Shown here one piece after another: positions 1-538 of a stretch of DNA of 64,000 nt; positions within the stretch are counted from its first letter, which is position 1; each line of letters begins with the position of its first letter. The position numbers were made by a program, and so were the translations under genes. The notes under the pieces are model-generated. The model searched no databases. It worked only from the letters and a program-made list of their open reading frames with translations, and was not told the origin of the DNA. This DNA comes from Promicromonospora soli (GTDB lineage Bacteria > Actinomycetota > Actinomycetes > Actinomycetales > Cellulomonadaceae): positions 120,756 to 184,755 of the forward strand of contig NZ_BNAS01000002.1 of NCBI RefSeq assembly GCF_014653785.1. Direction: 5' to 3'.

Positions 1-244
1 CCTCGACGCCCAGGTCCTGCAGTCGCACGCGGTTCGCGACGGTCGCGAGCAGGTGCCCCAGATGCAGGGCGCCGGTGGGACGGTCCCCGGTCAGGACGCG
101 GTACTCCCCAGGTTTCTGGGCGATCAGGCCCTCCAGGACGGCGCTGCGTTCGCGCGCCGCCGTGGCGGAGCGGGTGATGGTGCCCGCCTCGCGTGGCTCG
201 GCCGACGTCGGCGGAGTGGCGTCGGGCTTCGTGGTCACGGACAT
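1..244 (-). CDS. trpS: Tryptophanyl-tRNA synthetase, N-terminal part (runs off the left edge)
   Basis: This gene charges tRNA-Trp in the cytoplasm. Only the first 81 codons are present. The residues [14 protein letters not shown] (about 54-67) form the class I nucleotide-binding HIGH motif in the TrpRS version TGxxPTGxLHLGH, and [11 protein letters not shown] follows, as in actinobacterial TrpRS. The first 40 or so residues are a family-variable extension. The ATG at 244 has AAGGAG about 7 bases upstream. Assignment to TrpRS rather than TyrRS rests on the motif and on the upstream leader, which encodes tandem Trp codons. Confidence 0.9.
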
Positions 245-287
245 GTGGGTCTCCTTGGGTTTGGAGCAGCCCGCGCACGGCGTCGGG

Positions 288-332
288 CACAGAAAAGTCC
301 CGGGCTGCGGCGAGCAGCTCGGGACTTCTGTG
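288..332 (-). terminator. Attenuator-type terminator hairpin in the trpS leader
   Basis: Arms at 288-308 and 314-332 pair around a 5-base loop. Read on the minus strand, the GC-rich core CCCGAGCTGC/GCAGCCCGGG is followed by ACTTTTCTGT, which is a stem plus a short U tract. It lies between the Trp leader peptide and the trpS ribosome binding site, where a transcription attenuator would be. No T-box signature was seen. Confidence 0.7.
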
Positions 333-348
333 CGGTGGGCGCGTCAGG

Positions 349-393
349 TCACGGCTGCGAGTGCAGCCGCCACCAGCTCAGCCCGTGCGTCAT
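349..393 (-). CDS. Trp leader peptide MTHGLSWWRLHSQP upstream of trpS
   Basis: This 14-codon ORF lies about 105 bases upstream of trpS on the same strand and ends in TGA. Codons 7 and 8 are tandem TGG (Trp). Directly after them CGGCTGC-actc-GCAGCCG (352-369) can form a small pause hairpin, and the terminator hairpin follows. This is the classic layout of ribosome-mediated attenuation: starvation for charged tRNA-Trp would stall the ribosome on the Trp pair and relieve termination. Trp-codon leaders ahead of trpS are known in some actinobacteria. A TACGGT -10-like box (400-405) sits so close to the ATG that the transcript may start at or near it. Confidence 0.75.
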   Translation of the reverse strand: MTHGLSWWRLHSQP

Positions 394-538
394 GGGGCGA
401 CCGTAGCACCGAGCCCAGGCCTGGGTGAACGCTGCCGTGCGAGATGACAGCCCAGGCCATCGACATCCCGGTCCTGGTCGCCCACGGCGACGAACGACCA
501 GATCGTCCCGATCGCCGAACTGTGGCGAGAATGGACCC

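Follow-up and report, generated by a model that had tools for sequence, protein, structure and literature searches.

The 64,000-nucleotide stretch of the Promicromonospora soli genome analyzed here (the window) begins inside a trpS gene on the minus strand, and this locus raises the question whether the short sequence upstream of the gene controls it in response to the supply of charged tRNA-Trp. An earlier note, made from the sequence alone, had described at this place a 14-codon open reading frame (ORF) with tandem Trp codons, a pause hairpin and a terminator with a UUUU tract, and had taken these elements as ribosome-mediated attenuation and not as a T-box. We arrive at the same reading: with a probability of about 0.9 the element is a classical ribosome-mediated transcription attenuator of an auxiliary gene for tryptophanyl-tRNA synthetase (TrpRS), the transcript ends, the stalling of the ribosome and the response to Trp being predictions from the sequence. 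The anatomy of the element and its spacing are conserved, by folding it adopts alternative pairings, and it is associated with the auxiliary trpS gene.

All three parts of the earlier description were found again at the locus (Table 1). The leader ORF MTHGLSWWRLHSQP stands ahead of trpS and contains the two Trp codons, and the pause hairpin is seen in the folds as the pairing of segments 1 and 2 (-21.3 kcal/mol). The 62-nt stretch with the terminator folds with -33.7 kcal/mol compared with -17.1 +/- 2.8 kcal/mol in dinucleotide shuffles (z -5.9), and the whole 162-nt leader reaches a z of -4.9. Part of the U-tract that ends this hairpin is able to pair with the outer 5' arm. A strict sigma-70 promoter/terminator scan gave no site at the trpS leader. 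The sequence TGGTGGYGGCTGCNNNNGCAGCC occurs, with at most two mismatches, once in the 64-kb window, namely at the leader, with 0.01 occurrences expected, and among the three mini-ORFs of the window with two successive Trp residues (WW) only the trpS leader has the motif TANNNT 12-13 nt before its start.

For the comparison with relatives we used the 46 loci of the auxiliary gene in the family (L006-L017, L031-L053 and L099-L109). A leader of the type M...WW(R/W)(L/P)..Q(P/S)*, with two to three Trp codons, is present at 38 of these 46 loci and in all eight of the best species-labelled matches, five of which repeat family loci. The resulting main-type set, hand-picked for leader type, likewise comprises 46 loci, with 41 distinct leaders. 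Left out were L101-L107 and L109, five of which have another type of Trp leader and three of which have none that was found; with these 8 of the 46 family loci lacking the main-type leader, the element is not present at every auxiliary trpS. In the alignment of the 41 leaders both in-frame Trp codons are invariant, the start and the stop codon are conserved, the sequence GGCTGC...GCAGCC.TGAC is mostly invariant and gaps are confined to the parts ahead of the Trp codons or behind the stop codon. The earlier note had made its reading depend on the conservation of the Trp codons and the stem in close relatives, and both are conserved. Segment 2 lies 17 nt from the first Trp codon in 38 of the 39 distinct cores, out of the 41, which were used for folding, covariation and the covariance model; for L042, where GCAGC overlaps with itself, the script gave a spacing of 14. 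At all 46 main-type loci (41 distinct) the leader ATG is preceded at 12-13 nt by TANNNT, and this position of the promoter predicts a leaderless message. The earlier note was right about the -10-like TACGGT, but its wording of a nearly leaderless promoter should be sharpened, since the distance between the -10 element and the ATG predicts a fully leaderless message.

In a fold of the complete RNA the terminator wins and a switch is not visible. We therefore folded a cut RNA that stops short of segment 4. It begins at the presumed boundary of a ribosome stalled at the first Trp codon, the ribosome being taken to reach 16 nt beyond its P site. Under this condition the 2:3 pairing is formed in 38 of the 39 distinct cores, in the window leader with a bulged A and one mismatch and in L042 by way of the overlapping GCAGC copy that lies three bases further upstream. 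By folding, terminator and antiterminator are mutually exclusive. The comparison between them proposed in the earlier note has yielded both structures, the 2:3 pairing in nearly all cores and the 3:4 hairpin with the z value given above. With the same assumed reach of 16 nt, segment 2 would be accessible while the ribosome is stalled at the Trp codons and would be covered once it has arrived at the stop codon.

The element would then work as follows. RNA polymerase would initiate at the A of the leader ATG or close by, as the promoter suggests, and a ribosome would presumably begin on the leaderless message. With sufficient Trp-tRNA the ribosome would reach the stop codon and cover segments 1 and 2, the 3:4 terminator would form and transcription would end at about 293-287, and not near 280, where the earlier note had expected the premature transcript end. 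When charged tRNA-Trp is scarce, be it by starvation or by inhibition of the main TrpRS, the ribosome would stall at codons 7-8 and cover segment 1; segment 2 would be free to pair with segment 3, the terminator would be blocked and the spare TrpRS would be made.

Pairing of this kind is not limited to the family. The class-wide count starts from 171 loci, with duplicates counted. At 117 of them (112 distinct) there is a Trp leader (WW, WRW or WxP) with TANNNT 11-13 nt before it, and at the other 54 there is not. In the distinct leaders we counted triples in which a 5-base word close to the Trp codons is followed downstream by its complement and, 3-14 bases after that, by a second copy of the word. 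Such triples are present in 101 of the 112 leaders (all 41 of the family type and 60 of the 71 others), compared with a mean of 11.3 and a maximum of 21 in 30 rounds of shuffling; with 6-base words the count is 40 of 112 compared with 0.9 in the shuffles. The word of the triple varies by clade, with GCAGC, CGGCC, GGCGG, GGACG and others, so that the three pairing segments must have changed together.

Several points weigh against an attenuator and are collected here. The 2:3 pairing is not formed in the cut-RNA fold of L034. In L006 the terminator has -33.7 compared with -18.2 for the RNA up to segment 4, and with a terminator so much stabler than the antiterminator, antitermination would have to be kinetic; kinetic switching is usual for classical attenuators. 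Within the family not a single pair of the inner stems has changed on both sides. The inner stems can yield no covariation there because their pairs are invariant or nearly so: in the terminator the five inner pairs (GCUGC with GCAGC) are the same throughout, and the 1:2 pairing is nearly invariant with 99.6% of the cells paired. The outer terminator stem does vary, and it speaks for the attenuator. In its fixed register 294 of 351 cells are paired (84%), compared with 30-57% in six slid registers, and at the five variable outer positions, where we see the compensatory changes which the earlier note had looked for, 143 cells are paired compared with a shuffle mean of 108.7 and a maximum of 124 (reached in 0 of 2000 shuffles), figures which overstate independence and are not probabilities, since the bases following GCAGC determined the register sequence by sequence and since the sequences are related by descent. 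The class-wide leaders were picked by their Trp codons and TANNNT, and the spacing is odd in a few of the 101 triples, for example in L056 and L163. Finally, there are the 3 of 46 family loci of the auxiliary gene at which no leader was found.

Table 1. Features of the leader and attenuator upstream of the auxiliary trpS gene, in window coordinates
Feature	Position	Strand	Remarks
Possible -35 element TTCACC (weak)	424..429	-	18-nt spacer; read from the sequence, this locus only
-10 element TACGGT	405-400	-	TG at 408-407
Leader ORF MTHGLSWWRLHSQP, 14 codons	393-349	-	ATG 393-391, stop TGA 351-349; read from the sequence
Tandem Trp codons UGG UGG	375-370	-	invariant in 41/41 aligned leaders
Segment 1 GGCUGC	363..368	-	by folding, pairs with start of segment 2 (pause or protector hairpin)
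Segment 2 GCAGCCGUGAC	358-348	-	spans stop codon; pairs with segment 1 or segment 3
Full terminator hairpin	333-287	-	z -5.9; UUUU at 296-293
Segment 3 GUCCCGAGCUGC	325-314	-	pairs with segment 2 (antiterminator) or segment 4 (terminator)
Segment 4 GCAGCCCGGGAC	308-297	-	3' arm of terminator, by folding
Anti-Shine-Dalgarno GCUCC	263..267	-	CTCC near GGAG in 30 of 39 family leaders
trpS Shine-Dalgarno AAGGAG	256-251	-	read from the sequence
Start of auxiliary trpS	1..244	-	ATG 244-242; gene continues beyond window edge

The gene behind the attenuator (G000:C2:119869-120999, complement) encodes a protein of 377 amino acids which, with 224.1 bits for the NCBIfam model TIGR00233 trpS (cut-off 176.75), scores as a tryptophan--tRNA ligase. 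Its nearest solved structures are a tryptophanyl-tRNA synthetase (1yi8_B, E 6.5e-60) and a tryptophanyl-tRNA synthetase II (2a4m_A, E 2.6e-59), both of which we take to be Deinococcus enzymes. The genome contains three PF00579 genes, one of which encodes a second TrpRS that shares about 35% identity with the auxiliary one. The auxiliary gene is present in 12 of 13 genomes of the genus and is matched at E<=1e-60 in 48 of 393 genomes of the class. Among species-labelled sequences the gene nearest to that of the window is in Promicromonospora sp. MEB111 (84%), and its leader region (L110) is identical to that of the genus genome G007 (L011), which points to Promicromonospora as the probable origin of the window. 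At the other 13 trpS loci in the genus, most of them main genes and one the sole TrpRS gene of G001, no Trp leader of this type is seen; one of these loci has a mini-ORF containing Trp, without TANNNT. Judged by position, the attenuator thus serves the auxiliary and not the main TrpRS gene.

A covariance model of the 39 cores, the window sequence included, has one strong match in the window genome, the trpS leader (E 1.7e-15), the next match being at E 1.0 on the opposite strand of the same place. Matches at E<=0.01 were obtained in 59 of 150 genomes of the family, and in 57 of these 59 the element lies by its coordinates just upstream of the auxiliary trpS on the same strand (in G047 and G508 the match to the gene behind the element is partial or falls in two frames). 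The remaining two are relics: in G534 (L208) the attenuator is followed by no more than the last third of trpS, and in G531 (L209) the leader start codon is lost and no trpS was found, either next to the element or, at E<=1e-60, in the whole genome. The genome G038 has two copies of the auxiliary trpS (L031 and L099), each with its own attenuator.

The close association with trpS bears on the possibility that the leader chiefly gives rise to a small RNA or peptide acting in trans, with control of trpS in cis being secondary. A strong terminator would be expected to release a short RNA, the residues WW..L/P..Q of the peptide are conserved among the 41 leaders, and a trans-acting leader peptide, peTrpL, is reported for Sinorhizobium in the accessible part of PMC7298713. 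The conservation of the peptide can, however, be accounted for by the RNA segments GGCUGC and GCAGCC which it encodes, and the element keeps its place beside the auxiliary trpS or, in the two exceptions, at its relic. We therefore regard a main role in trans as extremely improbable.

Even less can be said for a T-box or another RNA sensing tRNA or a metabolite directly, which we consider practically negligible as an explanation. A search of window positions 1-3000 against Rfam gave no match at E<=1 to a T-box or to any other RNA family, and the Trp codons stand in frame within an ORF with conserved start and stop. The choice of ribosome-mediated attenuation over a T-box in the earlier note is thus supported by the conserved Trp codons, spacing, promoter and segments. 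On six loci Rfam returned seven matches, all of them under the curated thresholds. As no Rfam family reaches its threshold, the covariance model would be of help for annotation.

How far the switch acts by intrinsic termination is less uniform among the relatives. At least five U among the eight nucleotides after the stem are found in 11 of 11 distinct cores of the genus, but in just 1 of 28 distinct family cores from outside the genus (drawn from L031-L053, L099, L100, L108, L113 and L114), though the terminator stem is conserved there. By its sequence the hairpin qualifies as a candidate intrinsic terminator in the window and the genus, but not in 27 of the 28 other family cores. This is one loose end. 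Another is a conserved GCUCC/GGAG hairpin (251-267, minus strand) which covers the Shine-Dalgarno (SD) sequence of trpS. For 39 of the 41 leaders, two being without an assigned start, a CTCC was found at most 32 nt upstream of and near the GGAG in 30 of 39 compared with 2 of 31 window genes, and the openness of the SD, given as its median unpaired probability, is 0.08 compared with 0.50; a looser SD control gave 9 of 80 and 0.43. Outside the family CTCC is present in 10 of the 51 leaders with an SD found, 20 more having no assigned SD.

These two loose ends speak for a switch that acts mainly on translation or through non-intrinsic, Rho-dependent termination, the hairpins and the SD hairpin gating trpS and the U-tract being incidental. 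Such a switch would account for the scarcity of U-tracts outside the genus and for the sequestered SD, but not for the U-tract in every distinct core of the genus. Moreover, freeing segment 4 in silico hardly opens the SD, with medians changing from 0.05 to 0.08 in the genus (12 leaders) and from 0.24 to 0.24 elsewhere (27 leaders) and a rise of more than 0.1 in 3 of 39. Release of the SD by segment 4 is therefore unsupported by folding, the SD hairpin cannot be tied to the switch, and we consider the translational or Rho-dependent explanation very unlikely. As a tentative and rather doubtful extension of the transcription attenuator one could imagine a switch with two gates, the Trp attenuator and the SD-covering hairpin, with the genera poor in U-tracts switching without an ordinary intrinsic terminator, perhaps by translation or Rho.

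Outside the family one clade has a GTG-started leader VKSLVLVWWLPS or a close variant (L066, L073, L075-L078, L080-L082, L084, L085 and L088); by eye, its members have GCUCUC facing GAGAGC in place of GCUCC/GGAG. Of three species-labelled loci further down in the ranking which, by their names, probably belong to the broad group of the family loci, L128 carries a different Trp leader, and none was found at L155 and L173. The scripts also found no Trp leader at several loci of Brachybacterium, Actinomyces, Schaalia and Gleimia with the same type of TrpRS (L118, L121, L122, L127, L143, L148, L156 and others). This type is also encoded at L187, with 56% identity and with no WW leader found, in a metagenome-assembled genome labelled Spirochaetales, where the gene is either transferred or mis-binned.

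On the other side of the leader, and divergent from it, lies a gene for a TrmL-like tRNA 2'-O-methyltransferase (539-1045, plus strand, start uncertain). The part 566-1042 which we searched has PRK10358 as its best NCBIfam match with 163 bits, below the cut-off of 282. By eye, several relatives within the genus have a similar gene start upstream of the Trp leader.

With the attenuator of the window, the control of a spare TrpRS by a small element of very regular build is extended to Promicromonospora, Isoptericola, Cellulosimicrobium and Oerskovia; variant forms reach many other Actinomycetes. The natural variants with and without a U-tract offer material on termination by the actinobacterial RNA polymerase, and the attenuator could possibly be used as a portable Trp-tRNA sensor. 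Among the literature matches listed there was no Promicromonospora leader of this kind. Two works, one from 2010 and one from 2015, may bear on priority, and we do not claim novelty. The later one, a survey of Trp attenuators in Actinobacteria by Korolev et al. (2015, cited in PMC4833913), may already list some of the leaders.

The earlier one is a study by Vecchione and Sello and reportedly concerns trpRS1 of Streptomyces coelicolor. By its title (J Bacteriol 2010 192:3565) it treats an auxiliary, antibiotic-resistant TrpRS gene under ribosome-mediated transcriptional attenuation, and the window element is like it in combining an auxiliary TrpRS gene with this kind of control. Of the S. coelicolor paralogues trpS (SCO3334) and trpS2 (SCO4839), only SCO3334 is given as WblC- and tetracycline-dependent in the accessible part of PMC7157823. 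In Streptomyces lividans trpL2, which precedes trpS, is described as leaderless (PMC8079986, in part), and the leaderless start predicted for the window leader fits this published case. The two systems share a Trp leader peptide before trpS and two hairpins downstream, but trpL2 as described there has one Trp in MMTRTCTQLWRAA and no uridine-rich sequence, whereas the window leader has two Trp codons and a U-tract. The available text of PMC1262725 names trpS2 of S. avermitilis as having a candidate attenuator, and its genome list, as far as it is given there, has neither Promicromonospora nor a near relative. The same text describes the trp operons of Streptomyces and Corynebacterium with double or triple UGG, a gGCC-rGCy-GGCC triple and GC-rich terminators with U-tracts. 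The window leader resembles these operon attenuators in its repeated UGG, its complementary triple and its terminator with a U-tract, the triple being GCAGC-GCUGC-GCAGC in place of gGCC-rGCy-GGCC. The remark in the earlier note that Trp-codon leaders before trpS are known in some actinobacteria is borne out by the published Streptomyces cases. The window element is thus a further example of an established type of switch, and it appears informative but not surprising.
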